A stretch of DNA of 44,482 nucleotides from Myxococcales bacterium (GTDB taxonomy: Bacteria; Myxococcota_A; Polyangia; Polyangiales; Houyiibacteriaceae): positions 1-44,482 of the forward strand of contig JAHEEE010000032.1 in NCBI GenBank assembly GCA_024640845.1. The letters are read 5' to 3'. Numbering within the stretch: position 1 is the stretch's first letter; each line of letters opens with the position of its first letter. The translations under genes were made by a program, and so were the position numbers. Below, in pieces: positions 20,022 through 40,026 of this stretch. The notes below the pieces were generated by a model that saw only the letters and a program-made list of their open reading frames with translations, had not been told where the DNA came from and searched no databases.

Positions 20022-23000
20022 CTACACCTTGATCTGGATGCCGAGCTGCTCGCGCAGACGGAAGTAGCTCTCCGAAATGCTGTAGAGGACGATCTCTTTG
20101 ACCTTGTCGCGCGGCGCGAGGTCGGCCGTCGACTCCGACGGAATCTGCTGAGTCATCTTCACCGCCGTGTCGACGTCGTCGCAGAGCAAGAGGCCGGCAC
20201 GAAGCGAAGTGATTTCCGTCCCCTGCATCCAGCGCTTGATATCCGCCTGTCCGCCGGAATCGACGAACTTGCGGACGACCTGCTTGAGGACGTCGAGGTG
20301 CGATTGCTCCATGTACTTGCCGAGCTGCTTGGCCGTAGACTCGACACTTGCGTCACCGCCGCCCATGCCGACCAACCGCATCGCCGCAAGCAGCAGCGTC
20401 CGGAGCTCGGTGTGGGATTGGTACATCGTGCGGATGAAGTGTTCGCCACGGTAGTAGGTGAGGTGACGGCCGCAGACGAACGCCAGGTCGATCGGACGGT
20501 ATCCGGACAGGAGCGTGTAGCCCGTGATGATCGCGGGCGGGTTGCTGCGCGCCTCGTCTCGAAGGGCGCCCGAAAGCTCCTTTTGAATGTAGAGGCGAAC
20601 CGGAATGCTGACGTTGAGCACGTCCTGCGCCAATTTGAACTGCCGTGCCAGCGCGAGACTCGGATTGGCGAGGTCTTCGGCCTTGCGCTTGTGGAGATTG
20701 AGCTTCTTGTCGCTCACCGCCAGCGAGGCCCGAACAGCCGGAGCAATCACCTCCATGATCTTGGAGATATAGATGTCCTGGCTCGGGTGCATCAGGTCTT
20801 TGACCCAGTTCTCGTTGCTGAGCCGGGTCGTCGGCTGAATCTCGCGATCCTGTTTGTACTGCTGGAAGAACTTCTGTTGCTCTTCGTCGGCCTTCTGGAA
20901 GTACGCGAGCGTCCGCGCGATGCACCACGCTTTGTCGTATGCACGCGCGTCGAAGTAGAGCTTGTAGAGCGCCCGGTAGGAATCCAGCCGGTTCGGATCG
21001 TTCTGCAAGAGCCACTGATGCTCGGCGATGGCCTCGTTGGTTTTTTCGGGCATCGTCGCGTAGAGCTCGGCCAGGATCTGATGCTGAGTCGCGTCGTCCG
21101 GCTTGAGCGCCGCGGCCATCTTGAACGCCTCGGCGGCCGCGTCGAAGTTGCGCTGACGGTCGCGGTAGATGATTCCCAGCGTGTGCCAGAGATTGTGCTC
21201 GAGGTCGGTGTTGCCCTGGTTGATGATGCGGTGGAGCATCTTGCGGTACGCCCGCTCGAGAGCCTTCCAATCCTTGCGCGTGTTGAGGATCTTGTTGACC
21301 GCTTCGAACGGCTTGAGCTGGGTGGCGTCGAGGTCCAACGCCTCGTTGAAGCGCTCGAGCGCCGCGTCCTCGTCTTCGAGCTTGTCGCGGAGGATGACGC
21401 CGATCGTGTAGGTGTACTTCGACTTGGCGTCGTCCCGCTCTTCCAAGCCGGCGACCCGCTCGATGACGTCGATGGCCTCGGACCAGCGTTCCGCCGCCTG
21501 GTACGTGATGAGGAGCTTGTGCAGGAGACGATGGTTGTCCGGTTCGAGGTCGAGGGCCTCAGTGTAGGCCTCGGCAGCCTGATCGGGCTCGTTCAGTTTC
21601 TCGTGCCAGAGGTCGCCGAGCTCGATGAGGAGCTGGGCACGCGCGGAAGGCTCGTCTGCAACGTCGAGAATGCGCTTCTTGTACTCGACCACCGAGGTCC
21701 AATCACTCTCGGCGCTCTGGAGCGCGACCATCGCTTCGAGAGCGGGCACGAAATGCGTGTCCTCCTCGAGCGCCTTGTCGAACATGTTGCGCGCCTTCTT
21801 GTCCTCGCCCTGCTCGCGCTTCACCACGCCGAGCCGGTAGAAGACCTCGGTGATCTCATCGCGGCCGAGCGCATCGCGGTGCTGCACCAAGAGCACCTGG
21901 TGGTACTTGAAGGCCTCGTCCCACTGCTCCGCGCGGAAATAGCTTCCGGCCAAGCCCTTGAGCGCGTCCGAGTCGTCGTTGTCGAGCTCGTAGGCCTTCT
22001 CGTAGGCCGCGACGGCGTCGTTCGCACGACCCAGCTTGGTCGCCGTCTCGCCCAGCATGAGCGCCAGCCGGTGCTGTTCGTCTGGGTCGCGCTTGTCCGA
22101 GCGCTGCACGAGAACCTCGAGTAGCGGGAATGCGTCTTCGTAACGCTCGCTTCCGAGGTACGAGTCAACGAGCGGCATGAGCGCGTCCTCGTTGTCTGGA
22201 TCGGCTTGCGAGGCCGCTTCGAACGCTTGCACGGCGCCGTCTTCGTCGTCGAGTCGATCCGCACGCACCCGGCCGAGCTCGACGAGTAGCGCTGCGCGCT
22301 TGCGGTCCTTCTCGGTGTGCTGCACCTCGAGCGCGATCATCTTGGCCGCAGCAACCCAGTCACCCGAATCGACGTAGATGTTCCGCATCGCTTCTAGTGA
22401 TGGAAGGTGCGCCGGATCGATGTCGACAGCCGCTTGGAACTGCTCGAGTGCCGAAACGCGATCACCGAGCTCCTGATCGAGGATTCGGCCCATACGATGC
22501 TTCAGAAGCACCTGCTCCGCCGAGTCGTCGACCACGACTGCGAGTTGACCGAGGATGTCGAGGGCCGACGAATGGTCGCCCTTGCGCTCGTAGAGCTTTC
22601 CGAGCGCCTGAAGGCTGAAAACGTCTTGCTCGTTGAGGTTGAGCGCATTGAGATAGCTGTCGATCGCCTGCTCGACGTCGTCCTTGTGAGTCGCGTAGAC
22701 TTCGCCGAGCTCGCGGAAGATGCGGACCCGCTCTTCGGTGTCCGCCGTCGCGCTCGCGTGGCGGTCGTAGGTGCGCACGAGGTCGTCCCAGCGCTGCATC
22801 GTGCGGTAGAGCTGCTCCAGGTGGCAGAGCGCGTCGTCATGTAGGGGGTCGATGTCGAGAACCTGCTCGAGGCGCTCGGCGGCGTTGTCGGGCTTCCGGA
22901 ACTCCCGCTCCCACATCTCGGCGAGCCGCATCAGGATGTCGATGCGCTCGCGCTCGGTGGCCACCACCTCGTACTCTCGTTCGAGGATGCCAACCAGATC

Positions 23001-26000
23001 CTGGTAGCGCCCCTCTTGCGAGTACAAGCGCTCCAAACCTCGAAGTGCTTTGAGGTCCGACGGCGAAAGCTCGGCGGCCTTCTCGTAGTTGTCGATGGCA
23101 GCCTTCGAGTCGTTGAACTGCTCTTCGTAAGCCTCGGCGACTTGGAGCAGCGCCGACACGATGCTGTCGACGTCCTCGACTGCCTCGGCCTTGCGCTCGA
23201 GGATGTTCAGCAGCTTGTGAGAGCGGCCCTCCTCGCGATAGATGCGCTCGAGCGCCCGGAGCGCTCCAACGTGCTTCTCCTGAAGGTGAAGCGCCCGGCG
23301 GTAGTAGTCTTCGGCCTCTTGGCGCATCGCAAAGCGGTCGTCGGCCAGGTCACCCATGCGAACGTATGTAGTTGCCTTGACCTCGTCGTCGTCCGTGAGC
23401 TCGACGAGTTTCGCGAGGGCCTGGGCAAGCTTGTCCCATTGATGGGTCGTCTCGTAGAGGTCGCCGAGCTGCCACCACGCCTTGGCGTTGCTCGGGTCGA
23501 GCGCGCGAATCTGCTCGTAGTAAGGAATCGCGTACTCCGGATGACCGAGGTCCTGGCCGTACCACTTGGCACAGCACAGACAAATCGCGATTTGCGTCTC
23601 CGGCTCGTGGTCTTCCTGCAATACCTGATTCGCGGAGGTCAACAGCTCGTTCCACTTGTCGTTTGCGGCAGTGACGCGTTCGAGATCGACGGCGGTGTTC
23701 TTGTTCGCGAAGTCCTCCGTCCATGCGATGTAAAGCGTGTGATACGCCTGCTCGCCGTCACCCAGACGCTCTTCGTAGACCCGGGCGGCCGCGCGAAGAA
23801 GCTCGATACGCTCGGCGCGGTCTTCCGTAGCCTCGATACGGGTGACGTAGAGGTCGATCAGATCGTCCCAGCGTTCCGCTTCACGGTGGAGCCCCTGAAG
23901 CTCCGAGAACGCGTACTGGTGCATGGGGTCGACGTCGAGGATTCGGCTGAAGGCTCCCGCTGCGCGGTCCTTGTCGCCGACCTCGTGTTCCCACATCTCG
24001 GTGATGGCAATGAGCTGCCGGATCTTCTCCCCGGGCTCGAACAACGCGAGTGCGCGCTGTTCCATGACGCCGATGACCTCTTCCCAGTCGTTCTCTTCGC
24101 GGAAGATGAGCTCGAGGGAATCGAGAGCCTCGAAGAAGGTGGGGTCGACGTTCAGAACGTTGCGGTATGCCTCGGCGGCCTCGGCGGGCTGCCTGAGCTC
24201 GTTCGCGTAGATGTGGCCGAGCTGCATGTAGACCGTGACGAGGTCGGCATCCTCGAGGGTCGCCGCGCCTACATCGATGATCCGGTGCAGTGTCTCGGCC
24301 CTTTCCCGCGACTGACCGCCCGCACGCTGAATCTCGGCGATGCTGAAAAGAGCGTAGGTGTTGCCCGGATCGATGTCGAGCACGCGCTCCCAGTTTTCGA
24401 TCGCGTTGCGCTCGCGCTCGAGCTTCTCGTACCAGACCCTAGCGAGATCGGAGTATACCTGAACGCGGAACGCATCATCCTCGGCGACGCCCGCCTCGCG
24501 CTCGAGCACGTCGACCAGGTCGCGCCAGTTGCCCTGACCGGCGTAGATGTCACCGAGTGCGTTGAGAGCTTCGGGGTCTTCACCCCGGAGGTCGAGCACC
24601 CGCTGCCAGAGGCCGATGGCCTTCTCTTGGTCGCGGAGGCGATTGGACGAGAGCCGCGCCATGCGCGCGAACACATCCGCCTGCTGCGAATCGCCCAGCG
24701 CAATGCTCAGCTCCTTCTCGAAGGCCGCGAAAAGCTCGGGCCAACGCTCGGTGTTCGCGTAGATTCGTTGAAGCGACTGAATCGCCGGCGCGTGCTCGGA
24801 GTCGTACTCGCTCAGGAGCTTGTCGAACGCCTCGATGGCCTCTTCGGTCATCCCGAGGTTTCGGTCGAGGACGGTGCCGAGACGGAAGTGAAGGTCGACG
24901 AGATCCGAGCTGTTGTTCGAGCCTTCGATCCGCTTTCGGAGCACCTGCGAGAGCGCTCGATACGCGCCGTGTTTCGCATAGATGCGGTCGAGCGCGGCAA
25001 GGGCGTTTTCATCGTGATCGTCGACACCCAGTACGAACCGATAGGTCTCCTCGGCTCGTTCGAGATCGTCGAGTTGCTCCTCGTAAACCTTGGCGAGACG
25101 CCGACCGAGCTCCGCCTTGTTGAGGGCGTCGCTCGTGCGCTCGATACCACTCGCATAGGTCGTCGCCAAATCGGACCAGCCGTCGACGATGGCCGAGAGT
25201 CGTTCGGCCTCGCCGATCGTGTGGTCGTGGCTCGGGTCCTCGATCAGCGCCTTCTGCATCCAGCGGAACGCGCGGTCGTGGTCGGCGGCCTTGTCCTCTG
25301 CGATCTCCGCGAGGCGGTGCATCATGACGACGCGCTCGATCGGGTCTTTCTGATATTCGACCTGCACCTCTTGAACATTGAGGAGCTGATCCCAATTGCC
25401 CTGCATGCGGTAGAGGGGCTCGAGCACCTCGCCGACCTCGAGGGGCCGGACACCGCTCGCGAACATCTCTTCGAGTGCCGAAACCGCGGGCGCGTACTCC
25501 GGCGCCGCAGCGAGGATGTCGCGGTACTGGGAGATGGCAGACTCCATGTTGGCGAGCTGATTCTGGAATAGCTGGCCGGCACGGAATTGGAGATTGAGCA
25601 CCTCCTCGGGCGTGGTCGCGACCGCCGCTTCGATCTGGAGCGTCGCCGCCAAGTCGTCCCAGCGCTCGGTCTGCTCGTAGAGCCGGTCGAGCGCCTCGAT
25701 GCAGGCCACGTCCGATGGGTCGGTGTCGACGACGAACTGGTAGCGGGAAATCGCGCCATCGACGTCGTCGAGCTGAACCTCGTTGATGACCGCGGAACGC
25801 CTCGCGAGGTGGATGACCTCCTCTGGAAATTCCGCTTTCTTCTTCTGTACTTCCTCGTCGTAACGAGAGGCCACTTCATGCCAGCGACCGGTCTGCTCGG
25901 CGAGCCGTTCGAGCGACGACAGCGTCAGCTCGTTTCGATTGTCGAGAGGCAGCGCCCGAACGAACGCCCCAAAGGCTGCGGGCAGGTCCTCGAGCTGGAT

Positions 26001-29000
26001 CTCGTAGATCTCGGCGAGCTGCTGGAGCATCTCGACCTGGTCGCGCGGATCCTCCGTGAAGCGAACCTTCACCTCGCGCGCGTCGGCGAGCTTGCGGTAC
26101 TCGCCTGCGGCGAGGTGGACCTCTTCGAGGACCTCGGCGGCGGCCAAAGGCTCGACCGCGTCGGTGGTCATGACCGTCAGCGCATCGAGTGTCGCTTGGT
26201 GGTGCGGCGCCTCGGCTAGGATGTCCCGGTAGATCTCGATGGCCCGCGTCGGGTCCTCGAGGTGCCGCCGCCAGAGCTCTCCGATGCGGAAACGAAGCTG
26301 GATTCGCTGATCGTGGTCATCGACGAGCTCGGCCTGACGCTCGAGGACCTGCAGCAGGTCGCGCCATTTCTCGGTCTCCGCGTAGAGCCCATCTAGGTGC
26401 GCCAATGCCGGAAGGTCGTCAGGATCGATCTCGAGGGCCCGCTGATAGGCATCGATTGCCTTGTCCGCGTCGTCGAGCTGCGCCTCCTGGACCTGGCCCA
26501 TGGCGGTGAAGAGCGCTTTTCGCGCGTCGGGGTCCGACACGACCTCGGCCTTGCGCTCGTAGGTTTCGAGCAGCGACGACCATTTGCCGAGCTGCATCTG
26601 AAGCTCGATCAATCGGTCGATCGACTCGGCGTCGCCCGGCTCGATCTCGAGCACCTGCTGGTACACCGAAATCGCATCGCTCGGCTTGTCGAGGATGTCC
26701 TCGTAAATCGCGGCTGCTTTCACCAGCTGCTCGCGTTGGTCGGTAGCAGACGGCAGCATCCGGGCCTTGCGCTGGTAGATCCCGGCGAGGTCTTCGTAGC
26801 GCTCCGACTGCTGGAACAGACGCTCGAGTGCGTCGGCCGAGGCGTGATGCTCCTCATCGATTCGAAGCACGCGCTCGTAGTGCTCGATGGCACGGTCGAG
26901 CTGCCCGAGGTCGTCTTCGCGAATCTCGGCGGCACGAAGCAGAAGGCCGACTGCGAGCTGCGGGTCGTCAGCCTCGGCGACCACCTGCTCGTAGACGCTG
27001 GCTAGCGCATCGGCCGCGCCCACCGCCGCGCTGAGCCGCTCGAGCTCTTCCTTTGATTTCGGATGGCCTGGGTCCTCCCTGAACGCCCGCGCGTAGCTTT
27101 CGAAGGCGCTGCGGAGGTCCGTGAGCGAGAACTCCTGCAATTTGGCGATTTCGCTGAAGAGCTCCAAGCGCCGCTCGGGTGCGGTCGCGTGGTGCGCCTG
27201 GATCTCGTAGACGTCGACGAGTCGCGCCGCAGCGCCGCCGTCGCGATAGATCGGCTCGAGGATGTCGGCCACGGCCGCCTGATACTCCGACGACTCGAGA
27301 AGCCGCTCGAGCGCGCCGAGCGCCGCCGGGTTGCTCGCGTCGTTCGAAAGCACATCCCGATAGATCTCGATCGCGGAGTCGGTCGAGCCCATGCGCTCTT
27401 CGCGAATTTCGGCCAGGCGAAGCAAGAGCGTGGTTTGCTCGTACGGATCCTCGGCCAATGAAAGTTGGCGTTCGACGTTGTCTGCGAGGTCGCTCCAGAG
27501 CCCCTGGCGCGCAAGAAGCTCGTCGAGCGCGCTCAACGCCCCGCGGTTGGTCGGGTCGAGCTCGAGAATCTCGTTCTGAAGCGCGATGGCCTGCTCAGGC
27601 TCGTCGAGGAGGTCCGCATGGGTGCGCCCCATCTCCGCGAGAACTGCAATCTTCTCGTCGGGCTCGGTGTAGGCCTCCGCCCGCGCGCGCAAAACGCCCA
27701 CGAGCTCGTGCCAGCGCTGAGCGCTGCGGTACACGATGTCCAGAGCGCCAAGCACCTCGAAATCCCCGGGGTCCATCTCGAGCACTTTGCGGTACGCCGC
27801 AACCGCAGCCTCGACGTCCGTGAGTTGCGTTTCGTGGATCTGTGCGGTCTTGATCCAGAGCGAACGACTCAAGGTCGGGTCCTCGATGCTCGCAGCCAGG
27901 TCGCCTGTGAGGTCTGCGAGGGCCTCGAACAGATCGTTGTCGGTCGCGAGCATTTCGAGGCGTTGCAGTGTCGCCGCGTCGGAAGGCAGCTCACGGAATG
28001 CCTCGCACAGCGATACGAACCCCCGCTCGCCATCGCCAATGTGGTTGAAGTAGGTGTCGGCGACACGCGTGAGGAGAGACAGCTTTTGCCGCGGCTCGTT
28101 GCTGTATCGGTGCTGAACGCGGAGTGCGTTCACGTACTGGGTCCAATCCTCGGCCATCTCGTAGACGGGCTCGAGGACCCGCGATGCGTCGGATGCCACT
28201 TCCGAATCCACGAGCAACTTCTCGAGTTGTTCCCTCGCGCCATCGTGCTCCGGCATGATCGAGAGCACTTCGCGGTAGAGATCCACCGCGCGGGGCTTGT
28301 CCTGCAGCTGCGACTCACACACACGCCCCAAACGGAACTTGAGCGAGGCAAGCGTTTCGTGGCTCTCCGGGCCGGCTTCGATTCGGCGTTCGAGAAGCTG
28401 GCCGAGCTCCTGCCAACGCGCTTCCCCCTCGTAGAGCTGCTCGAGGGCCCGGCACGCGTCGTCCTGCTCCACACCGTACTCGTCGATGATGCCTTCGAGC
28501 GCTTCGATAGCGCTATCGATGTCTTCGAGCGCTTCGGCGAGAACGGTGACCCGCTTGTAGGCGACCTGCAGACGAACCTCGGGATCCTGCTCGAGCTCGA
28601 TCTGCCGCGCGTAGATCTCCAGAAGATCGCGGTACCGTTCCGTCGTGAGATAGAGGTCCCCAAGCGCCGAGATAGCGTCGAGATTGTTGCTCTCGAGCTC
28701 GTACACGAGTCGGTACTGCTCAACGGCTTCATCGATGCGATCGAGCTGAGTCAACGTTTGGCCGTAGCTCAGTCGAATGGGCACGGCTTGATGCGGATCG
28801 GAGACCGCTTCGATCGCCGTCTCGAAACCCGACACCAAACGGTCCCAGCCGTTCATCTCTCCGGCCAAGCGCTCCACGTCGATGCGCGCTTCGTCGTGCG
28901 TCGGTGCAAGGGCGAACGCCTCGAGGTAGCGTTCGAACGCAACCTCCGGCTGTCGCAAACGCTCTTCGAACACATGGCCGATCTTTCCGAGCAGCTCGAC

Positions 29001-30074
29001 CTTGGAATCCGTTTCGCTCGCATGTGCGAATCGGACTTCGAGGACCGACACGAGCTTGCGCGCATCGTGGGCCTCTTCGTAGATCGGTGTCAGCGCTTCT
29101 GCGGCCTGAACGTTGTCGCCATCGGCGGCAAGGATCTTCTCGTACACGCGCGCCGCGCGGTCCGGCTTTCCCTTCTTGTCCTCCCAGAGGCGAGCCGCAC
29201 GGAACAGAAGCGGAATCTTATCGTCTGTCGAAGTCTCTTGTGCTTCAGCCTGGCGCTCGACAATGCGGATGAGCTCGTCCCACTTTTCGTTGGCGGCGTA
29301 GAACGCTTCGAGCTCGTCCCAAGCGCCAAGGGAGACGTAGCGGCGCTTGAGCTGCTCTTGCGCGCGTCGGTCGGACGGGTCGAGCTCGAGGAGTTTCTTG
29401 AACGCCCCAATGGCGCCTTCATCGTTGCCGATCTTGTCGGCGTAGATCATGCCGAGCTTCTGAAGTTGCTGCTTCATCGAGCTGACGTCGGTATCGCTCT
29501 CGACCAGCGTTTCGAGCACATCGGCGAGCGGCTCCCACTCACGGGCGCGTTCGTAAAGCTGCGCGAGGTTGCTGAGCGCGGTCGGGTTTTGCGAATCCCC
29601 CTCGAGAACCTTCTGCCAGAGCTCGATGCATACCGCAGGCTTGCGCAGCCGTTGCGTCGCGAGATCGGCCATCTCGGCGTAGCGAATGAGCCGATCGTCT
29701 TCCGGAAGGAGCTCGACCTCGCGCTCCATCGTGCGGATCAGCTTCTCCCAGTCGCGACGCTTCTCGTACATCTGCTTGAGACGCTCGATCGCGTCGACAT
29801 CGGTCGCGTCGTATTCGAGCAGCTGCTCGAAGCACTTGATCGCCTCAGCCTGATTGCTCGAGCGCTCGAGGTAGAGCGTCCCCGCGGTGCGGAAGAGCTC
29901 GACCTTCTCGGTCGGCTCCTGAACCAGATCCGCCTTTTTTAGAATGGAGCGGATCATGTCCGACCATCGCTTCTGTTCCTCGAACTTCGCGATCGCGTCG
30001 TCAAGCTTTTCAACTTCTGCCATCTCGTCTGGCGTCATCTCGCGAACCTCATCCCCCGATTGTTCTTCCGACAT
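20022..30074 (-). CDS. gltI: Giant TPR protein GltI (AgmK-like), 3350 residues
   Basis: This is a 10-kb gene for a cytoplasmic-looking protein with no signal peptide or membrane span. Residues about 30-3050 are a continuous helical array of roughly 40 units of about 72 residues, each a pair of TPR-like helices. The recurring pattern is A(I)..Y..vLe.dP.d..Al.aLe.LY....rWddLv.v; Trp marks such as RWDDL, EKWDEL and KDWKAL recur along the whole length. The C-terminal ~280 residues are different and contain LAFVCGRHLTYYRGEHF (about 3195-3211). Size, repeat type and synteny after gltG match GltI/AgmK of M. xanthus, a very large TPR protein of the Agl-Glt gliding machinery that docks the cytoplasmic MglA/AglZ side to the motor. 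It starts 14 bases after the preceding TPR lipoprotein gene. Confidence 0.85.
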   Translation of the reverse strand: MSEEQSGDEVREMTPDEMAEVEKLDDAIAKFEEQKRWSDMIRSILKKADLVQEPTEKVELFRTAGTLYLERSSNQAEAIKCFEQLLEYDATDVDAIERLKQMYEKRRDWEKLIRTMEREVELLPEDDRLIRYAEMADLATQRLRKPAVCIELWQKVLEGDSQNPTALSNLAQLYERAREWEPLADVLETLVESDTDVSSMKQQLQKLGMIYADKIGNDEGAIGAFKKLLELDPSDRRAQEQLKRRYVSLGAWDELEAFYAANEKWDELIRIVERQAEAQETSTDDKIPLLFRAARLWEDKKGKPDRAARVYEKILAADGDNVQAAEALTPIYEEAHDARKLVSVLEVRFAHASETDSKVELLGKIGHVFEERLRQPEVAFERYLEAFALAPTHDEARIDVERLAGEMNGWDRLVSGFETAIEAVSDPHQAVPIRLSYGQTLTQLDRIDEAVEQYRLVYELESNNLDAISALGDLYLTTERYRDLLEIYARQIELEQDPEVRLQVAYKRVTVLAEALEDIDSAIEALEGIIDEYGVEQDDACRALEQLYEGEARWQELGQLLERRIEAGPESHETLASLKFRLGRVCESQLQDKPRAVDLYREVLSIMPEHDGAREQLEKLLVDSEVASDASRVLEPVYEMAEDWTQYVNALRVQHRYSNEPRQKLSLLTRVADTYFNHIGDGERGFVSLCEAFRELPSDAATLQRLEMLATDNDLFEALADLTGDLAASIEDPTLSRSLWIKTAQIHETQLTDVEAAVAAYRKVLEMDPGDFEVLGALDIVYRSAQRWHELVGVLRARAEAYTEPDEKIAVLAEMGRTHADLLDEPEQAIALQNEILELDPTNRGALSALDELLARQGLWSDLADNVERQLSLAEDPYEQTTLLLRLAEIREERMGSTDSAIEIYRDVLSNDASNPAALGALERLLESSEYQAAVADILEPIYRDGGAAARLVDVYEIQAHHATAPERRLELFSEIAKLQEFSLTDLRSAFESYARAFREDPGHPKSKEELERLSAAVGAADALASVYEQVVAEADDPQLAVGLLLRAAEIREDDLGQLDRAIEHYERVLRIDEEHHASADALERLFQQSERYEDLAGIYQRKARMLPSATDQREQLVKAAAIYEDILDKPSDAISVYQQVLEIEPGDAESIDRLIELQMQLGKWSSLLETYERKAEVVSDPDARKALFTAMGQVQEAQLDDADKAIDAYQRALEIDPDDLPALAHLDGLYAETEKWRDLLQVLERQAELVDDHDQRIQLRFRIGELWRRHLEDPTRAIEIYRDILAEAPHHQATLDALTVMTTDAVEPLAAAEVLEEVHLAAGEYRKLADAREVKVRFTEDPRDQVEMLQQLAEIYEIQLEDLPAAFGAFVRALPLDNRNELTLSSLERLAEQTGRWHEVASRYDEEVQKKKAEFPEEVIHLARRSAVINEVQLDDVDGAISRYQFVVDTDPSDVACIEALDRLYEQTERWDDLAATLQIEAAVATTPEEVLNLQFRAGQLFQNQLANMESAISQYRDILAAAPEYAPAVSALEEMFASGVRPLEVGEVLEPLYRMQGNWDQLLNVQEVQVEYQKDPIERVVMMHRLAEIAEDKAADHDRAFRWMQKALIEDPSHDHTIGEAERLSAIVDGWSDLATTYASGIERTSDALNKAELGRRLAKVYEEQLDDLERAEETYRFVLGVDDHDENALAALDRIYAKHGAYRALSQVLRKRIEGSNNSSDLVDLHFRLGTVLDRNLGMTEEAIEAFDKLLSEYDSEHAPAIQSLQRIYANTERWPELFAAFEKELSIALGDSQQADVFARMARLSSNRLRDQEKAIGLWQRVLDLRGEDPEALNALGDIYAGQGNWRDLVDVLEREAGVAEDDAFRVQVYSDLARVWYEKLERERNAIENWERVLDIDPGNTYALFSIAEIQRAGGQSRERAETLHRIIDVGAATLEDADLVTVYMQLGHIYANELRQPAEAAEAYRNVLNVDPTFFEALDSLELIFREENDWEEVIGVMEQRALALFEPGEKIRQLIAITEMWEHEVGDKDRAAGAFSRILDVDPMHQYAFSELQGLHREAERWDDLIDLYVTRIEATEDRAERIELLRAAARVYEERLGDGEQAYHTLYIAWTEDFANKNTAVDLERVTAANDKWNELLTSANQVLQEDHEPETQIAICLCCAKWYGQDLGHPEYAIPYYEQIRALDPSNAKAWWQLGDLYETTHQWDKLAQALAKLVELTDDDEVKATTYVRMGDLADDRFAMRQEAEDYYRRALHLQEKHVGALRALERIYREEGRSHKLLNILERKAEAVEDVDSIVSALLQVAEAYEEQFNDSKAAIDNYEKAAELSPSDLKALRGLERLYSQEGRYQDLVGILEREYEVVATERERIDILMRLAEMWEREFRKPDNAAERLEQVLDIDPLHDDALCHLEQLYRTMQRWDDLVRTYDRHASATADTEERVRIFRELGEVYATHKDDVEQAIDSYLNALNLNEQDVFSLQALGKLYERKGDHSSALDILGQLAVVVDDSAEQVLLKHRMGRILDQELGDRVSALEQFQAAVDIDPAHLPSLEAMRNIYVDSGDWVAAAKMIALEVQHTEKDRKRAALLVELGRVRADRLDDEDGAVQAFEAASQADPDNEDALMPLVDSYLGSERYEDAFPLLEVLVQRSDKRDPDEQHRLALMLGETATKLGRANDAVAAYEKAYELDNDDSDALKGLAGSYFRAEQWDEAFKYHQVLLVQHRDALGRDEITEVFYRLGVVKREQGEDKKARNMFDKALEEDTHFVPALEAMVALQSAESDWTSVVEYKKRILDVADEPSARAQLLIELGDLWHEKLNEPDQAAEAYTEALDLEPDNHRLLHKLLITYQAAERWSEAIDVIERVAGLEERDDAKSKYTYTIGVILRDKLEDEDAALERFNEALDLDATQLKPFEAVNKILNTRKDWKALERAYRKMLHRIINQGNTDLEHNLWHTLGIIYRDRQRNFDAAAEAFKMAAALKPDDATQHQILAELYATMPEKTNEAIAEHQWLLQNDPNRLDSYRALYKLYFDARAYDKAWCIARTLAYFQKADEEQQKFFQQYKQDREIQPTTRLSNENWVKDLMHPSQDIYISKIMEVIAPAVRASLAVSDKKLNLHKRKAEDLANPSLALARQFKLAQDVLNVSIPVRLYIQKELSGALRDEARSNPPAIITGYTLLSGYRPIDLAFVCGRHLTYYRGEHFIRTMYQSHTELRTLLLAAMRLVGMGGGDASVESTAKQLGKYMEQSHLDVLKQVVRKFVDSGGQADIKRWMQGTEITSLRAGLLLCDDVDTAVKMTQQIPSESTADLAPRDKVKEIVLYSISESYFRLREQLGIQIKV

Positions 30075-30958: not shown

Positions 30959-30995
30959 GCTTGCCTCCTACGCTTGGAAATTCACAAGCACTTCA

Positions 30996-31025
30996 ATCCT
31001 ACAGCATTACTCGCATTGCAAACAA
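30996..31025 (-). promoter_or_regulatory. Candidate internal promoter before the TPR lipoprotein-gltI pair
   Basis: The 208-base gap between gltG and the TPR lipoprotein gene is AT-richer than its surroundings. On the minus strand TTGTTT (31020-31025) precedes TAGGAT (30996-31001) by 18 bases. Transcription would start near 30989, about 30 bases before the ATG. This would let gltI be expressed separately from the upstream glt genes. Confidence 0.35.
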
Positions 31026-31166
31026 CACTAAATCCGCCTCTTTTTTCGGCTATTTTCGCCATCTTGGCCAGTTTCAGGCGCACGTATGTTCCCTGCACGC
31101 TGGAACAGCGGCTGGAAAGCCTGGTTATCCGGACGGAATCTCGCTTTTCAGGCGATCGCCCGGACG

Positions 31167-33212
31167 TCACTGACCCGCTGCGTCGAGCAAGAACGGGTAG
31201 TTGACGACGACGACGCCGCCGCCGTCGGGCGCGGGGAACGTCCATCGACGGACCGCGCGCACGATGCAGCTCTCGACCGCCTCGTTCCGCAAGCTCGAGC
31301 TGCCGACCATCGCCGACTGCACGGAGCCGGTCGGAGAGATGACGAAGCGCGTAGTGACGCGGCCGTTCAGGTCGGGTCGCGCGTTGAGCTGCTGCTCGTA
31401 GCAGAACTTCACCTCGTTGATGTGGCGTCGGACCACGCGACGGATGACTTCCTTCGAGAGCGAGCCGCGCACCTCGGCGCCGCCACTGCGAACCTGCGGT
31501 ACCCCAGCGGAGCGCCCACGGAATCCGCCGACGCCGCGACCGTAGCCGCCCTCGCCTGCGCCACGACCGCCACCGCGGCCGATCGTTCCGAAGTTGCCCA
31601 TGCCGATCGTGCCCTGGCCCATGCCGCCGCCACCGCGACCCGTGCCACGAAGGCCCAAGCCTCCGAAGCCGAAGTTCTGGCCGATGTCGTTGCCGGTCAT
31701 CGCGCCGAGCGCGCTAGCTGGATCGTTGCCGAGCGCGAAGTCCGCGCCGTATGGCGAAGTTGGCGAATTGAACGAACCCTGCATCGACGCGAGTGTGCCG
31801 ATGATGCCCGCGGTGCGCGCCTCTTCCTTGGCTTGCTCGCGCGCCATCACTGGGTCGGGGTTGTCCGCCGGACCCTCGATGCCGTACTTGTTCTTGGTCT
31901 TCTCGGCGGTTTCGTCGCCCATCTGGCCCTGTTCGCCTTCGTGTGCCTTGCCGGTGCCGCCACCCGACGAGTCCGAGCCGTTGAGCCACTCGGGCTCCGG
32001 CTCTTCGAGCTCCTCCGGCTCCATGAGGAACTGGATCAGTCGCGAATCGGTGCTGAGCAAATCCGACGAAAGTCCCCGCGGACGCGGCGGTTGGAAGTAG
32101 AACATCGTCAGCACGAGGCTCGCGAACAACGCGGCACCTGCGACATAAATCATCGGGCGCACGTCGAGCTTGGCATGCCCTGCGACCTTTTTGCCCGCCT
32201 TCACGTCTTTGATGATGAAGGTGAAGTCGCGATGCTTCATGCGCACCGAGCCGCCTTCCGGCACCGGGAACTCCATCGCGCCACGGAAGTTAGCGCTCTC
32301 ACGGAAGTCGCCTTGGCCACGCATCAGATCGAACGATCGAGTCTGGTCGCCAATCGTCGCTTCACCCTTCGCGCCCTCCGGAATGATCGCGGTCACGCCC
32401 GCTCCCTCGGCCACGCAAAGCGGCATTCGGTCTACGCCGATAGCGTCGTGACCGAGAATGTAGTCTACGTCTTCCTCGCTCCCGGGTTCGCCGACGTAGT
32501 AGTCGCGCGGCGGCGTGAGGTAATCGACGTTGAGCACGTTGCGGTCGCCCCAAAGAACGGAGACTTCGATCGAGCGCTCGTCAGTTTCGATCTCGTGCGA
32601 AGGAACGGCAGGCGCCGTGGCGATCAGACCGTAGACGTCGCCTTCCTCTTCGACCCTCGCCGCTGCCGAAGCAAACGGCGTACGAGACTTGCGCTTCGCG
32701 CCTACTTCGAACGGATTGAACTTCGGACCGGAGTCCTCTTCGGGTCGCGTCGCGACGGGCTGAGGTGCCTTCATCCTCGGCTCGGATTCCTCGTCGACCA
32801 TCGCGGTCATGGCGCCTTCGTCGACGACGGGTGTCGGGCGCCCCCCGGCACCGGCAGCCATCGCGACAGGCGGGCTCGACGCCACCGCCACCGTGCCGGT
32901 GATGATGTCGACATGCAGCTGCTTGTTGCCGAGTTGGATCTGATCGCCGGTCTGCAACTTGCGCTTGTTGACTTTCTCGCCATTGACGAGCGTCCCCGAC
33001 GCGGAGCCGAGATCGATGATGAACACCTCACCTGGTGCCGTCACTTCGATCACCGCGTGCATGCGGCTCACCTTGTCGTCGTCCAGGCGAATATCACTCG
33101 TCGCCAGACGACCGATCTTGATGATCTCTTGGCTCAGCGTTTCACTGCTCAGCAGTTGCTCCCCATCGTAGATGGAAAACGCGACCGACGTATTGTGGCT
33201 CGTGTCACTCAC
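31167..33212 (-). CDS. gltG: GltG (PglI-like): FHA domain, one membrane span, AgmX/PglI C-terminal domain
   Basis: The product is 681 residues. The N-terminus is an FHA phosphothreonine-binding domain with the expected marks: IGR (33-35), SRMH (49-52) and GTLVNGEKV (N77). A long cytoplasmic linker follows, then a single membrane span (about 353-372), a periplasmic segment and a Gly-rich stretch (about 500-570). The last ~95 residues form a TonB-like AgmX/PglI-type tail (RHINEVKFCYEQQL ... RRWTFPAPDGGG). This layout and the position after gltF match GltG/PglI of M. xanthus, an inner-membrane subunit thought to couple the AglRQS motor to periplasmic Glt parts. The FHA domain suggests control by a Ser/Thr kinase. 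It starts 12 bases after gltF. Confidence 0.87.
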   Translation of the reverse strand: MSDTSHNTSVAFSIYDGEQLLSSETLSQEIIKIGRLATSDIRLDDDKVSRMHAVIEVTAPGEVFIIDLGSASGTLVNGEKVNKRKLQTGDQIQLGNKQLHVDIITGTVAVASSPPVAMAAGAGGRPTPVVDEGAMTAMVDEESEPRMKAPQPVATRPEEDSGPKFNPFEVGAKRKSRTPFASAAARVEEEGDVYGLIATAPAVPSHEIETDERSIEVSVLWGDRNVLNVDYLTPPRDYYVGEPGSEEDVDYILGHDAIGVDRMPLCVAEGAGVTAIIPEGAKGEATIGDQTRSFDLMRGQGDFRESANFRGAMEFPVPEGGSVRMKHRDFTFIIKDVKAGKKVAGHAKLDVRPMIYVAGAALFASLVLTMFYFQPPRPRGLSSDLLSTDSRLIQFLMEPEELEEPEPEWLNGSDSSGGGTGKAHEGEQGQMGDETAEKTKNKYGIEGPADNPDPVMAREQAKEEARTAGIIGTLASMQGSFNSPTSPYGADFALGNDPASALGAMTGNDIGQNFGFGGLGLRGTGRGGGGMGQGTIGMGNFGTIGRGGGRGAGEGGYGRGVGGFRGRSAGVPQVRSGGAEVRGSLSKEVIRRVVRRHINEVKFCYEQQLNARPDLNGRVTTRFVISPTGSVQSAMVGSSSLRNEAVESCIVRAVRRWTFPAPDGGGVVVVNYPFLLDAAGQ

Positions 33213-33224
33213 CCGAAACCCCCA

Positions 33225-33494
33225 TCACAAATCTTCCACAGATTTCAACATCTCGGGAATAAAGTGCTCTCGAATCTGAATCAGGGAAGCCCGACGGCCG
33301 CGCCGTCGGACGATCAACTGCTCTCCATCGGGCCGCACCAAGTCGCCCGTGACCAGGTCATCCTCGAAGTCGTACGTGGTCTCTGCGGCAGGGACGCCCT
33401 GCGCTGACACCGGCGCACCCATCATCGAAATGCCGACGATTAGCGATGCAAAAACGAGGGTTTGCGAGATGAACTTCGAAAAGTATTTGCTCAT
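33225..33494 (-). CDS. gltF: Small exported protein GltF (CglF-like)
   Basis: The product is 89 residues: a signal peptide (MSKYFSKFISQTLVFASLIVGISMMGAPVSAQG cleaved near SAQG, shown here as the first third) then a short mature part with YDFEDDLVTGDLVRPDGE and an Arg-rich RRRGRR patch. Its size, export signal and place between gltE and gltG match CglF/GltF of M. xanthus, a small periplasmic or membrane-linked component needed for adventurous motility. It is tightly packed, 9 bases after gltE and 12 bases before gltG. The symbol rests mainly on synteny and size, since the protein has no diagnostic domain. Confidence 0.7.
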   Translation of the reverse strand: MSKYFSKFISQTLVFASLIVGISMMGAPVSAQGVPAAETTYDFEDDLVTGDLVRPDGEQLIVRRRGRRASLIQIREHFIPEMLKSVEDL

Positions 33495-33503
33495 AATGTC
33501 TCC

Positions 33504-34784
33504 TTACCCCGCCATCTGCATGGCTTCGATCGAGATGTCGATGTTCTGCATTCGGCCCGGTCGGCACTTGGGCGCCCCGCGCTTCTTGCTCTGCCGTTGG
33601 TCACAGCGCGTGTTGACGTTCTGAACGCTCGAGCGGAATTCGGGAGCGTTGCCGGCGCGCTTCAAGAACTCTCCAAAGTAGCTCCTCGCCTTCTTCAGGT
33701 CAGCGACGGAGCCCGACATGTAGTCCTGATAGAGCACACCGAGGTTGAAGTAGGCCTCCGGACGGTTCCCGTTGAGCTGCTCGGCTCGCTCGTACTGAGC
33801 TTGCGCCTCGGAGAACTGCCCTAGGCCCCGAAGTGCGGTACCAAGGCCCACGATGGCATCATAGTTTTCGGGCTGGAGCGCCACCGCGCGCGCGAACGCT
33901 TCTCGCGCATCTTCGTAACCGCGGAACGAGATTGTCACCTGGCCGAAATTCATCTGGGCCTCGAAGAGATCGGGATCGAGCATGATAGCCCGTTGGAAGT
34001 AGCGAAGCGCCGAGATGACGTCGCCCTTGTAGACCTTGATGAGCCCCCACGTGTTGTAGATCGGCGCATAGTCCGCATCGAGCATCTGCGCTTGACGGCA
34101 GACGACCTCAGCGAGGTCGAGCTCCGCTGGCTTGCCCTGGCGACCGCGATCGTAGTGAAGAAGCGCCATCTGGTTGAACGCCGCGAGGTAGTCGGACTCG
34201 ATGGCAAGGGCGCGCCGAAGGTTCTTGAGAGCCTCGTCGTTGTTGCCCTGCGCGCGCTGCACGATAGCGAGATTCGTGTACCCGGACGTGCACTGAGGGT
34301 CGTCTTTGATCGACTCCTCGAAGGTCGACTTCGCCTGACTCATGCGGCCGTTCTCCAGGTCCCGAAGCCCCATGGCGACACGCGCCTTGCAGAACTTCGA
34401 GTCTACCTTGAGTGCGGCCTCGTAGTGGTCGTACGCGCCGTCGTCGCCGCAGCGCGAGAGCGACAGCCCAGCCATGTAGAGCGCCTCAGCAAATCCCCCG
34501 CCCTGAGCATCGGACACGCGCTCGAACGCCTTCGCCGTCGAGCTGCACTCGGCAGACGTCCAGCCGCTCTTTTCGTTTGCCTCGAACTCGTCCAGTGCAG
34601 ACTTCCACTTGCCGTGGGCCTTCTTGCTGACGGCGTTGCCGTCGGCCGTTTTGATGGCCTCACCGCCCGCAGTGCGCGCAACGTCCGCGGACGGAGCCGC
34701 CGTCGTGCTGCTGCTTGGGCCCTCGCCGCCGCCGCAACCGACGACGAGCGCGATGGCAATGAAACTTACGCTATGGTTTCGCAT
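33504..34784 (-). CDS. gltE: TPR outer-membrane lipoprotein GltE (AglT-like)
   Basis: The product is 426 residues. A lipoprotein signal ends IALVVGC. A Ser/Thr/Ala linker leads into about six to eight TPR motifs, for example AYFNLGVLYQDY and AQMNFGQVTISFRGYEDAREAFARA. A basic tail RCDQRQSKKRGAPKCRPGR holds two Cys, and the protein ends IDISIEAMQMAG. This fits GltE/AglT, the TPR lipoprotein of the Glt machinery. The ATG at 34784 shares its A with the gltD stop (TGATG), behind a strong AGGGAGGAG, so translation is coupled; a GTG at 34787 is the alternative. Confidence 0.8.
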   Translation of the reverse strand: MRNHSVSFIAIALVVGCGGGEGPSSSTTAAPSADVARTAGGEAIKTADGNAVSKKAHGKWKSALDEFEANEKSGWTSAECSSTAKAFERVSDAQGGGFAEALYMAGLSLSRCGDDGAYDHYEAALKVDSKFCKARVAMGLRDLENGRMSQAKSTFEESIKDDPQCTSGYTNLAIVQRAQGNNDEALKNLRRALAIESDYLAAFNQMALLHYDRGRQGKPAELDLAEVVCRQAQMLDADYAPIYNTWGLIKVYKGDVISALRYFQRAIMLDPDLFEAQMNFGQVTISFRGYEDAREAFARAVALQPENYDAIVGLGTALRGLGQFSEAQAQYERAEQLNGNRPEAYFNLGVLYQDYMSGSVADLKKARSYFGEFLKRAGNAPEFRSSVQNVNTRCDQRQSKKRGAPKCRPGRMQNIDISIEAMQMAG

Positions 34785-37700
34785 CACGGCTCCTCCCTAT
34801 TGGCAACCGCATCTTTGGTATCGAACCGCTGTTGATTGATCGCGCCGAGGTCGACGACACCGGGATCGCCCACCGTCGCCTTCACGTAGTTCGGCTCACC
34901 GCGAAGCTCGGCTGCAATTGGGTACTTCGTCGGGTTGAGCCCGTTGAGCTCTTGCTCACAAGCTCGGGACCACTTGTTGAACCACCGAACTTGAGTCGCC
35001 GTCTTCAGGCAGAACTCGAACTTGTCGACCGCCTGCCGCTGAAGCGGCTCGGACACGTCATCGAGCGCGCCCACGTAGATGTCGAAGAGCTCTGGATCCT
35101 TTTCGATCTCCCGCGGGATCGGAGCATCGCGGAACTCATCCACGAAGCTTCGGTACATCTCGCCGGTCCGCGATGCGGCGGCGATTTGCCACGGCGCCGA
35201 CTTCATCTGCACGCCGCCGGCGTCGACCGTCATTCTCGCGACCTTCGCGTAGTCGGCCTCGGCCGCGCGAAGCGCGCCTTGCTTTCGCTGTACCCATTTC
35301 TTGAACTCGGTGTCCGACCACTTCTTCACCTTGGCCATGCTCTTGCCGCCCCGGTACTGCGGGAACGCGACCTTCTGGAAGTCCTCGAACTCGTACTCGG
35401 ACAGGTAGAACTGCGCCTCCGCCGCGCTGTCGAGGGCCTGTCGAAGGTAGAGCACCTTGTCCTCCTTCGAGGCTTTGAGCGCCGAGATCCGCTTGGGCGC
35501 GCCAGACGTCCAGGTCTTCACGGCCGCAGCGAAGCTAGGCTTGGCCTCGCCCTTCTTGTTGAGCTCCCAGAATGCACGGCCGATGGCGGTGTGCGCTTCG
35601 ATGATCTGGTGCGGCATGCCGACCTTGCCGTACTTCTGTAGGTACTCTCGGTAGTGCGTGATCACCTGGAACCAGCGCTCCTGCCGCTCGTAGATCGAGC
35701 CGATCGAGAAAAACACCTGCGAGGTCTGTCGCGGGAGCTTCTTGCGGTAGTTCTTCGCGAAGAGGTCGGAGTTCTCGATGGCGGTCTTGTCGTCGCCCAG
35801 GCCTATCCGGAAGAACGTCGCTTGCTCGAGGCCCTCGATGGCGTTCGGGCAGGTACCGTTCTTCTTGTCCTCGGCGGTGCAGCGCGTGCCGTCCTCGCCG
35901 GGGAACTTCCGGGCGAACTGCTCGTAGTACTTCGCGGCCTGCTCGTAGTAGGCGAGAGCCTGGAAGTTCTGCCCGATGAGATAGATCGCTTTCTTCGAAA
36001 GCTCGCTCTCCGGATAGCGCTCGATCAAGACGCTGCGCACCTGGATGGCCCGGCCTAGCAAATGGGCCGCCTCGAAGTTGATCGCGGCGTTGTAGAGCAT
36101 CTCGTCCATCTCGCCGCACTCTTCATGCCGGCGGAAGATGCGAACGTATGTCGCGGCGGCCTTCTTGAACTCCCCCGTCTTCTGGTAGGTCTCGGCCTCC
36201 TTGCGTCGGACTTGGCACTGCAGCGTGCTCAGTGTGCCGCAGAGGTCCGGGTGTTCGTCCTGAAGCGTCTCGGTCCCACAATACGATGCACTCATCGGAT
36301 CGATCGTGGCGCCGAGCTCTTGAATGCACGCGACACGCGGCTGCGCGATTTGCGTGCCCATCACGTTGAGGCAATCCAGGTAGAGGTTCGCGGCGTACTC
36401 CGCAAGCTCGCTGTCCTTGTGATTGAAAGCGATGTCGCGAAAGAGCACAGCCGCTTCCTCGAAGCGATTGGCCTCGTAGTAGATTCGCGCGCGGCGATAC
36501 TTGATCGTCGCGAGGTCTTCCGCCTGGTCGACGTAGCAAACATAGCGATTGAACGCCTCGAGCATCCCCTCCTGAAGCGGAGTGAGCTTTTTGGGTGCGA
36601 ACTCGTTCTCCGGCACCGCGTTCGCCTTCTTCATCCGCGCCTGGTCAGTCTTGCTGATGAACTTCGTCGTCGTTTCGCGCGGGACGTACTGCTGCTGGTA
36701 GAGGTTATTGTAGCAAAGCACCGCGGCGTACGCGGCATCGCTCGTGTACTCACCCTGAGGATTGATCTCGACCACGTGGTCGAAGGCCGGACCACACTGG
36801 CCCCATTCCTCCATCTTCCAGAGCAGCTCCGCGTAGAAGTACGAAATCCTGTACTTGGTGGGCCAGTCCCGCTTGTCGATGTTCGGGAAATCCATCTGCT
36901 CCATGTCGGGGAACTCCTTGAGGAGCGTGCGGTAGAGCACCGCGGCCTGCGACATGGTCTTCTTGTTCTTGGTGCCCGGTGCGTCGTCGCTGCCTACCGC
37001 TTCGCGGTGCCAAGAGGTGCCGAGCCAAAGCATCGTCGTCGCGGTCTCGGCTTTGCACTCCTCGACCTTGTCCTGTGGCTTGCCGCCCTTGTTGAAGGTC
37101 CGGTAGACGTCGACGAGCCGCTTGAGCTCGACGATTTGTTTGTCCTTCGACTGGGACGAGATCACGGCATTGGTGACCTTGGTCTGCCACTCGCAAAGCG
37201 AGTTGCTGCGCGGCGTGTCGGCCATGAGCTTGTGGTAGACGGTGATCGCCTGCGGCCACTGCCCGGTGTCGTAGTAGAGCTCACCGAGGTTCTCGAGCAT
37301 CTCGTGCGCCTCGGCGTCGCTACGGGCGTAGCGACGGAAAAACTGAAGCGCCTTGCCGGGCGAGCCGTAGCGTGAGTATGGAAGCACGAGCTCCTTACGG
37401 GCCTGCTTCGCCAAGTTCTTCGCATCGTTGGCGTACTTGTTCTTCTGGGCGAACTCGAGGATGTCGACGAAGCCCTGAAGCGATTGCCGGTAGCGCTCGC
37501 GGTTGTATTCGACCCATGCGATCTTGTAGAGCGCATAGCCGTAGACCGAGTTTCGATTGGGCGGGAACTCGAGGACCTTGCGGTAGAACTTCCCGGCCGC
37601 CTCCATGTCGACTTCATCGTTGAAGTAATACTCGGCGAACGAGAGGTACGCGTTCGGTACGAAACGACTGTTCGGGTAGTCCTTGATCAGCCGCCGATAG

Positions 37701-38401
37701 ACCGAGCGCGCCTTGTCGAACTGATTCAGCTCTTGGAGCGCAAAGGCGAGCGAGAAAAGGACCTCGTCCATTCGGTTGAAGGTCGGATGGTCGCGAACGA
37801 GTGTCGCGTAGGTCCGGATGCTGTCCTCGCGGATCTTGTCGAGCTCCGCTTCCGCGGCCTTCTGACCGTCACGCGCTTGCTTGCAGCGGGCCTGGTCCTG
37901 GTCTCGGGTGCATGCTTCGTAGATCGGGTCGTCGAAAGAGCGCACCTTGGCGTTCTTCGCGATCTGCATCTCGAACTGAGTCTCGGCGAGGCGGAGTAAC
38001 ACCTCTGGGCGCCTCGGGTCGTCCTCCGAGCTGTTCTTGACGAGCCTCTCGAGAATCCCGATCTCTTTTTCGAGCAAGCTCTCGGCCCTCGCACGGGTCT
38101 GTTCCCGTCCGAGCCGTGTGCTCATGTCGATCTGAAGCGAAGGGCCGGTCGGGCCTCCGGTCTTGATCTTCTTCCGCTCTGCGGCCGTCATTCGGGAGAC
38201 CGGCGCATTGCCGCCCTCCTTCGCCACTTCCTTCTTGGCACCTGCCGGACAAGCCGCGATCGCTCGCTCGGTGTCGGCCGGAATGCACATCGGGGCGGTG
38301 CTCATAGGCGCTTGTTCCGCAGCGGCCTCGCCCCCCATTACCACTGCGAACAACCCGAAAAGGAAGCCCGCCACGTACTTGGTGTTTCTTAGCGCGTACA
38401 T
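34784..38401 (-). CDS. gltD: Large exported TPR protein GltD (AgmU-like)
   Basis: The product is 1205 residues with an N-terminal signal peptide (VAGFLFGLFAVVMGGEAAA). Degenerate TPR/half-TPR helices follow along most of the length, for example RLIKDYPNSRFVPNAYLSFAEYYF and YLIGQNFQALAYYEQAAKYYEQFARKFPG. Several cysteines are scattered through the protein. It corresponds by size class, export and order (just before gltE) to GltD/AgmU of M. xanthus, a large TPR protein placed in the periplasm that moves with focal adhesion complexes. Its ATG overlaps the end of the upstream gene by 13 bases, and its stop overlaps the gltE start, so the three are a tightly coupled unit. Confidence 0.82.
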   Translation of the reverse strand: MYALRNTKYVAGFLFGLFAVVMGGEAAAEQAPMSTAPMCIPADTERAIAACPAGAKKEVAKEGGNAPVSRMTAAERKKIKTGGPTGPSLQIDMSTRLGREQTRARAESLLEKEIGILERLVKNSSEDDPRRPEVLLRLAETQFEMQIAKNAKVRSFDDPIYEACTRDQDQARCKQARDGQKAAEAELDKIREDSIRTYATLVRDHPTFNRMDEVLFSLAFALQELNQFDKARSVYRRLIKDYPNSRFVPNAYLSFAEYYFNDEVDMEAAGKFYRKVLEFPPNRNSVYGYALYKIAWVEYNRERYRQSLQGFVDILEFAQKNKYANDAKNLAKQARKELVLPYSRYGSPGKALQFFRRYARSDAEAHEMLENLGELYYDTGQWPQAITVYHKLMADTPRSNSLCEWQTKVTNAVISSQSKDKQIVELKRLVDVYRTFNKGGKPQDKVEECKAETATTMLWLGTSWHREAVGSDDAPGTKNKKTMSQAAVLYRTLLKEFPDMEQMDFPNIDKRDWPTKYRISYFYAELLWKMEEWGQCGPAFDHVVEINPQGEYTSDAAYAAVLCYNNLYQQQYVPRETTTKFISKTDQARMKKANAVPENEFAPKKLTPLQEGMLEAFNRYVCYVDQAEDLATIKYRRARIYYEANRFEEAAVLFRDIAFNHKDSELAEYAANLYLDCLNVMGTQIAQPRVACIQELGATIDPMSASYCGTETLQDEHPDLCGTLSTLQCQVRRKEAETYQKTGEFKKAAATYVRIFRRHEECGEMDEMLYNAAINFEAAHLLGRAIQVRSVLIERYPESELSKKAIYLIGQNFQALAYYEQAAKYYEQFARKFPGEDGTRCTAEDKKNGTCPNAIEGLEQATFFRIGLGDDKTAIENSDLFAKNYRKKLPRQTSQVFFSIGSIYERQERWFQVITHYREYLQKYGKVGMPHQIIEAHTAIGRAFWELNKKGEAKPSFAAAVKTWTSGAPKRISALKASKEDKVLYLRQALDSAAEAQFYLSEYEFEDFQKVAFPQYRGGKSMAKVKKWSDTEFKKWVQRKQGALRAAEADYAKVARMTVDAGGVQMKSAPWQIAAASRTGEMYRSFVDEFRDAPIPREIEKDPELFDIYVGALDDVSEPLQRQAVDKFEFCLKTATQVRWFNKWSRACEQELNGLNPTKYPIAAELRGEPNYVKATVGDPGVVDLGAINQQRFDTKDAVANREEP

Positions 38402-40026
38402 AGGTTAGTCACCTGTTGTCGATAGAAGCCGAGCTCGTCTCGCCACCACTCCCCATTGAACGGCCAGAGCTGATGTTCTTCGTCCACGTTGACGTCGCCG
38501 CCCCTCGATTGCTTGGCTAGCGTCATTTGTTGCTGAAGCTCCTGGTCGATTTGACCCCGACGGAAGGTCGCGATCTCGAGCTCCACGGTGTCGACCTGAT
38601 TGCTCAGATCCTTGAGCTCGCGAATGAGCCGCTGGTAGCGGCCGCGCGCGAGGTCACCTGCCTGGTCGACGGCAAACGCCTTGGCGAGGGCGATGTCCTG
38701 AAGGATCTGACCGCCTACGGGCGAGTCTTGGAATTCCTGGCTCGATTTGCCGAGCCGCTCCTCTTCCTTGTCGAGGATCGCGACGTACTCGAGGTGCTGA
38801 AGCACCGTGCGATCGCTGAGCGCGGTCGACACGATTGGGCGTACGCGCGGCGATAGGTCTGCGCTACCACTCTGCACCTGCTTGAGGAACTCGAAGAAGT
38901 CGGCGTTCGCTTGGTTCTTCTGGAGCACGGCGTCGAGCTCCTGCTTCACCGGATCGTACTGATCGTGGAACTGCGCGACGGTCGCCTCGGCGTTGTCCAC
39001 CTGACAGTTCACGAAGAACGTGACGGCCTTCAACACGAGCGCCTCGGGATAGAACGCGTCCGTGAAGTACGGCGAGTACAGGGTGTGCACGTTGCCGAGC
39101 GCGCGCGAGTACTCGTCCGCGAGGAAGAACGCCCAGGAAGACTCGAATAGAGAGTCGAGCCAGTACTCGCTCGACTGCTCGACTTTGGTCCACGACTCGA
39201 CCGACTGGCCAAGCAGCGTGCCGTCGATCTGGCCGCTCTTCTGCTGCTGGTTCGCCGCGGTGTAGTAGACGCGCGCGAGCGAGATCCAGGCTAGGTTCTC
39301 CATGCGCTTTTCGTCGACGCCCTTTACGTCGCCCGCATCGATCGCATCGAGAATGGCGCGGAACGACGCGATGGCCGGGCGCGCTTTTCGCATGCGAATG
39401 AAGGAGATGCCTTCGAAGAACTTCGCGTATGCGTATTCCTTGGCCTTGGGGTCAACCTCTTGGAAGACGTCGATCGCCTGCCGGAACGACGCCTGCGAGT
39501 AGAGGTGACGGCCCATCAAATAGAGGAGCTGGTTGTAAAGATCAGGATCCTTCTCTTTGAACTCCTCGAGCGCGCCGATGCCGTAGCGGCCGACCTTCTC
39601 GATGATCCCCGACGATTCGGGAAGCTTCGAAGCCAACAAACCGAGCCACTCGAGCGTCTCGCCGAAGAACAGGTGACGTGGACCCTGTGCGCTGATGTCG
39701 TCGAAGACGGTGAGCGACGACTGGTAGAAGCCCATGTTGTAGAGCGTTTGTCCCAACATGAACTGCGCCTTGTCGCGATTCCCGCGGCCGTCCTTCGACT
39801 TCCCCGCGGCAACACGCTCGAAGCCCATCGCAGCGTCTTCGTACTTCTTCGAGTCGAAGGCGTTCAGCGCGTCGGTGAGTCGCTTCGACGGCTTACCGAG
39901 CTTCACGGGCGCTTCGCTCTGCCCCGTCTCCTCGAGGCCAAAGCTCATGTCCTGGGCCTCTGCTGGCGTGCCCACGCTGAGAGCCCAGACCAACGCAGGC
40001 AGCGCCCACAAGCGGATCCAGTTCAT
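38389..40026 (-). CDS. Exported TPR-like protein, first gene of the glt operon (GltC-like position)
   Basis: The product is 545 residues. The signal peptide (MNWIRLWALPALVWALSVGTPAEAQ) is followed by a mature start DMSFGLEETGQ. Degenerate TPR helices come next (FMLGQTLYNMGFYQSSLTVFDDI, YLMGRHLYSQASFRQAIDVFQEV). A C-terminal coiled-coil-like stretch (RGRYQRLIRELKDLSNQVD) and a Trp-rich tail (LWPFNGEWWRDELGFY) complete it. A TTG at 40038 is in frame, but the ATG at 40026 has GGGGGA five bases upstream and is preferred. Position immediately before gltD suggests GltC of the M. xanthus machinery; I am not sure enough of that assignment to give the symbol. It is the promoter-proximal gene of the cluster. 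Confidence 0.78.
   Translation of the reverse strand: MNWIRLWALPALVWALSVGTPAEAQDMSFGLEETGQSEAPVKLGKPSKRLTDALNAFDSKKYEDAAMGFERVAAGKSKDGRGNRDKAQFMLGQTLYNMGFYQSSLTVFDDISAQGPRHLFFGETLEWLGLLASKLPESSGIIEKVGRYGIGALEEFKEKDPDLYNQLLYLMGRHLYSQASFRQAIDVFQEVDPKAKEYAYAKFFEGISFIRMRKARPAIASFRAILDAIDAGDVKGVDEKRMENLAWISLARVYYTAANQQQKSGQIDGTLLGQSVESWTKVEQSSEYWLDSLFESSWAFFLADEYSRALGNVHTLYSPYFTDAFYPEALVLKAVTFFVNCQVDNAEATVAQFHDQYDPVKQELDAVLQKNQANADFFEFLKQVQSGSADLSPRVRPIVSTALSDRTVLQHLEYVAILDKEEERLGKSSQEFQDSPVGGQILQDIALAKAFAVDQAGDLARGRYQRLIRELKDLSNQVDTVELEIATFRRGQIDQELQQQMTLAKQSRGGDVNVDEEHQLWPFNGEWWRDELGFYRQQVTNLCTR

Follow-up and report, generated by a model that had tools for sequence, protein, structure and literature searches.

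The window, a 44,482-nucleotide stretch that makes up one whole contig (C136) of a 4.14-Mb draft genome in 145 contigs (95.6% complete), carries a block of seven consecutive genes on the minus strand between positions 20022 and 40026. The genes read gltC-gltD-gltE-cglF/gltF-gltG-TPR lipoprotein-gltI (Table 1). The original prediction had placed a Glt (gliding transducer) block here, and all seven genes were found in the order and range that it gave. The gaps along the block, from gltC to gltI, are -13, -4, 9, 12, 208, and 14 bp, which fits the one or two transcripts that had been proposed. The housekeeping genes tsaE and carB come after the block, as had also been noticed, and were rejected as linked genes since ~14 kb of other genes separates them from gltI in the same genus.

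Table 1. Features of the Glt locus and its surroundings in the window
Feature	Position	Strand	Description and evidence
MglA-like small GTPase, outside Glt block	12634-13374	-	246 aa; extra to canonical MglA on C81
gltI/agmK	20022-30074	-	3350-aa cytoplasmic TPR protein; TPR arrays
TPR lipoprotein, unnamed, between gltG and gltI	30089-30958	-	TPR matches; Cys after signal peptide (GGNC)
gltG/pglI	31167-33212	-	FHA, TM, and TonB-like tail; NF033760, NF033768, PF00498
gltF/cglF	33225-33494	-	89-aa exported protein; NF033764
gltE/aglT	33504-34787	-	TPR lipoprotein; NF033758, lipobox
gltD/agmU	34784-38401	-	1205-aa exported TPR protein; TPR matches, signal-peptide-like N terminus
gltC	38389-40026	-	Periplasmic TPR protein, signal peptide; start ATG at 40026, frame open from TTG at 40038; NF033756
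LpC, Cys-rich lipoprotein, divergent from gltC	40306-40743	+	Co-conserved; invariant Cys residues
HAMP-domain protein, two TM, without kinase	41276-41875	-	Conserved neighbour; PF00672; synteny
HEAT-repeat exported protein	41902-42726	-	Conserved neighbour; PF13646; synteny
ftsY	42816-44144	+	TIGR00064, 335 bits; constant block neighbour in Polyangiales (synteny)
OmpB1, GltB-like outer-membrane barrel, first residues	44313-44482	+	Cut by contig end; continues at C105:1-860

We compared the block with the curated NCBI equivalog models of Glt proteins, and those for GltC, GltE, CglF, and GltG all matched, each below its cut-off. GltC matched NF033756 with 298 bits (E 1.3e-88) over model positions 118-619, and its C terminus holds a WPFxGExWRDELGxY motif that is invariant among 13 homologues. 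GltG matched NF033760 with 401 bits (E 7.7e-120) over 5-649, while NF033768 matched its tail; the protein consists of a cytoplasmic FHA domain (PF00498), a single TM segment at 355-373, a periplasmic Gly-rich linker, and the TonB-like tail. CglF matched NF033764 with 60.9 bits (E 9.2e-17), and its length equals that published for GltF of M. xanthus, 89 aa. The reciprocal best hits on which the original prediction was to stand or fall have one explicit case in GltE, which at 118.9 bits to NF033758 is the top GltE match genome-wide, compared with 89.6 for a paralogue on contig C118. No curated GltD model matched GltD in the profile search. The protein found at the same position is 82% identical in the same genus and 28-34% identical in other families. 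The putative GltI, which is free of signal peptide and TM segments, likewise occurs at the same place with 79% identity in the same genus and 29-55% elsewhere. The GltD and GltI assignments, made without a specific model, thus rest on position, size, TPR make-up, and conservation.

The matches fell short of the equivalog cut-offs (GltG 401 against 650, GltC 298 against 450, GltE 119 against 225, and CglF 61 against 90), which are tuned to M. xanthus and serve as a naming threshold and not as a biological feature. The cut-offs appear narrow, as the one for GltG was reached by none of 379 sampled genomes and the one for GltC by none of 57. The Glt identity of the block is supported by the equivalog profiles, the GltE reciprocal best hit, scores for GltC, GltG, and CglF above those of the C118 paralogues, and synteny with cultured gliding myxobacteria. 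The clustered core transducer, GltC, D, E, F, and G, is present, with GltD included through its position, TPR make-up, and conservation.

The order of the block had been described as that of M. xanthus. This holds for gltD-E-F-G followed further on by gltI but not for gltC, as in M. xanthus gltD-E-F-G-H-I-J form one cluster and gltK-B-A-C a second (PMC3169522), whereas in the window gltC heads the gltD cluster; the order is therefore that of the Polyangiales. In Anaeromyxobacter G1 and G2 are also grouped (PMC3169522). The likeness to the M. xanthus G1/G2 clusters with aglRQS (M1) (PMC3169522, PMC4488436) extends to the presence of GltC, a separate AglRQS-type motor, and paired OmpA-like barrels. 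In further differences, the place occupied by gltH in M. xanthus, between gltG and gltI, is taken by the TPR lipoprotein, gltJ is on another contig of the window's genome, and the barrels come after ftsY. CglC/GltK was not detected in this genome with NF033754, a model whose control matched nowhere either.

The seven-gene order recurs in two loci each from the same genus, the same order, and other classes, and in another family of the class, where gltC is cut by the end of the retrieved stretch. Several further loci have the same order with one gene missed by the simple gene caller. This recurrence argues that the order did not arise by chance. Across the phylum, 105 of 141 sampled genomes carry genes of the GltG type. 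Among the best 80 loci of a GTDB scan, none of them from Myxococcus, we counted only contigs long enough to show the gene concerned; gltD (68/69), gltE (64/65), gltF (60/61), and gltG (57/59) lie downstream of gltC, and two barrels lie upstream of it in about 35 of 53. The original prediction had called the TPR lipoprotein extra, yet it is a conserved member, found in 48 of the 55 long-enough loci from the same 80 and kept in other classes as well. The arrangement OmpB2-OmpB1-ftsY-HEAT-HAMP-UPF0102-LpC-gltC-D-E-F-G-TPR lipoprotein is shared with Sorangium cellulosum So0157-2, Polyangium, and Minicystis rosea, UPF0102 being undetected in one of these loci (L130). S. cellulosum, Polyangium, and M. 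rosea are among the named members of the GTDB set. These loci differ from the window in sequence, with GltC 43-45% identical to that of the window.

At the right end of the window the barrel gene ompB1 starts and is truncated where the contig stops. The window's final 121 bp and the opening 121 bp of C105 are the same sequence, an exact overlap that makes the two contigs very probably adjacent, and genomes of the same genus in which this region is unbroken have the layout of the window plus C105. C105 completes OmpB1 and carries a second barrel gene in tandem; both match TIGR04565, the second below its cut-off. The copy of OmpB1 from the same genus is predicted to form an eight-stranded barrel with OmpA as its best match (mean pLDDT 70, N terminus poorly predicted). 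As GltB and GltA of M. xanthus are themselves OmpA-like barrels and paralogues of each other (PMC4488436), the C105 barrels, although matched to the broad family TIGR04565, are strong candidates for GltB and GltA. The original prediction had the outer-membrane barrels missing from this stretch, but one barrel gene does start in the window.

The divergent LpC gene is adjacent to gltC in 72 of 75 testable loci among the best 80 from GTDB. As a neighbour it is on a par with the Glt genes in constancy, and its conserved position suggests a role in the machine. LpC belongs to no known family, and its predicted fold (AlphaFold pLDDT 84) matched nothing in the PDB. A tentative proposal, which we hold to be somewhat doubtful, is that both the TPR lipoprotein and LpC belong, as components so far unrecognised, to the gliding machine of Polyangiales and neighbouring classes, where they may fill the role that CglC/GltK and GltH have in M. 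xanthus. The HAMP-only membrane protein and the HEAT-repeat protein, too, remain syntenic with the ftsY and glt genes throughout many Polyangiales.

The original prediction had hinted that the motor, GltJ, and the barrels were absent and had suggested looking for them, along with mglB, in the full genome. Candidates for each turned up. The GltJ/AgmX candidate is a 628-aa protein on C62 with a zinc ribbon, a GYF domain, a TM segment, and a TonB-like tail; it matched NF033761 with 105.6 bits, below the cut-off of 450, and its only PDB matches are the AgmX/GltJ domains 7z3c and 7zok. The genome holds four ExbB-type genes. By gene context the one on C39 looks like part of a Tol-Pal-like set and the one on C46 like part of an ExbB-ExbD-TonB set with TonB-type C termini. 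The other two lie on C72 (3911-8725 of locus L015) in two divergent ExbB-ExbD-ExbD triplets, one followed by a 288-aa protein. Judged by their make-up of one ExbB and two ExbD genes, these triplets are candidates for AglRQS-type motors. Divergent pairs of ExbB genes are also present in other Polyangiales, and in M. xanthus, too, there is a second Agl-like set, MXAN_3003-5 (PMC3858216). Three MglA-family GTPases are encoded, and MglB adjoins the canonical MglA on C81.

A second, paralogous GltC-D-E-F-G-like cluster is present on C118 (1890-10363 of locus L012), where the GltG at 430-1890 lacks the FHA domain and no GltI is visible, the contig ending right after the cluster. Its scores are well below those of the window block (GltC 70, GltG 157, and CglF 22 bits). 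In M. xanthus the Nfs sporulation cluster (nfsA-H) is a Glt paralogue that contains C-D-E-F-G homologues and barrels but lacks GltI, J, and K (PMC3169522), and that works with the same AglRQS motor in spore coat assembly (PMC3858216). The window block differs from Nfs in having GltI directly downstream. Because GltI is present, we rejected the identification of the block as an Nfs sporulation complex.

With gene identity, order, conservation, and the co-occurrence of the parts established here, the block very likely supplies the trans-envelope transducer of a complete myxobacterial Agl-Glt gliding system, gliding being read from the genes. In the speculation of Luciano et al. (PMC3169522), possession of AglRQS and GltA-G marks any bacterium as a potential glider, and the candidate parts list of this genome meets that set, the barrel step by inference. 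By analogy with M. xanthus, a proton-driven AglRQS-type motor, for which C72 has two candidates, would power the machine. GltG, with its FHA domain in the cytoplasm and its TonB-like tail in the periplasm, and cytoplasmic GltI would together link the motor to the polarity switch MglA/MglB encoded on C81. Proton flow through the motor would move GltG and its partners, the periplasmic GltC, D, E, and F would pass the force to the GltB/GltA barrels encoded at the start of C105, and the whole would form moving focal adhesions. Counting against the gliding reading are the equivalog matches below their cut-offs, the lack of a GltK/CglC match in a search with an uninformative control, the matching of the barrels to a broad family, and the source, a draft genome of about 4.1 Mb from an uncultured organism.

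The alternative that survives best, though we consider it unlikely, is that the locus encodes a Glt-like machine with a function outside gliding, such as surface-polymer movement like that of Agl-Nfs in spores, or an ancestral envelope complex. Nfs itself, with the same parts and motor, assembles the spore coat (PMC3858216), group B genes are present in non-gliders (PMC3169522), and the small genome of an unobserved organism is in keeping with this reading. Against this, the block contains the GltI that Nfs lacks, a GltJ candidate and MglBA are found in the same genome, the same locus occurs in cultured gliding myxobacteria, and the core paralogue on C118 is a separate cluster without a visible GltI, though C118 ends just past it. 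The suggestion that missing parts pointed to an ancestral envelope-spanning version serving another purpose is unsupported since motor, barrel, and GltJ candidates exist in the genome, and this reading is possible but weaker than that of a gliding system. That the genes are unrelated TPR/FHA proteins with a chance likeness to Glt is hardly credible; many models do match TPR proteins and neither GltD nor GltI has a specific model, but the full-length equivalog matches of GltC and GltG, the CglF match, the genome-wide best match of GltE, and a gene order kept across classes refute it.

In the GltG tree the window groups with its genus and family beside the Polyangiaceae. The host is therefore placed among the uncultured Polyangiales as a relative of Sandaracinus and Sorangium, and GltC identity makes the Sandaracinaceae its nearest named group. 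The gliding-system block is an ordinary find of an already known kind. The contiguous gltC-D-E-F-G-(TPR lipoprotein)-I cluster with nearby OmpA-like barrels is the standard Polyangiales arrangement, and the split layout of M. xanthus is thus more likely the derived one. The TPR lipoprotein as a conserved member and LpC as a constant neighbour of gltC are mildly new, and the two conserved lipoproteins offer testable leads in cultured gliders. Against M. xanthus MglA (6hjh) the window's own MglA-like GTPase scored 190.8 bits; it is 50% identical to the canonical MglA of its genome and has no adjoining MglB.
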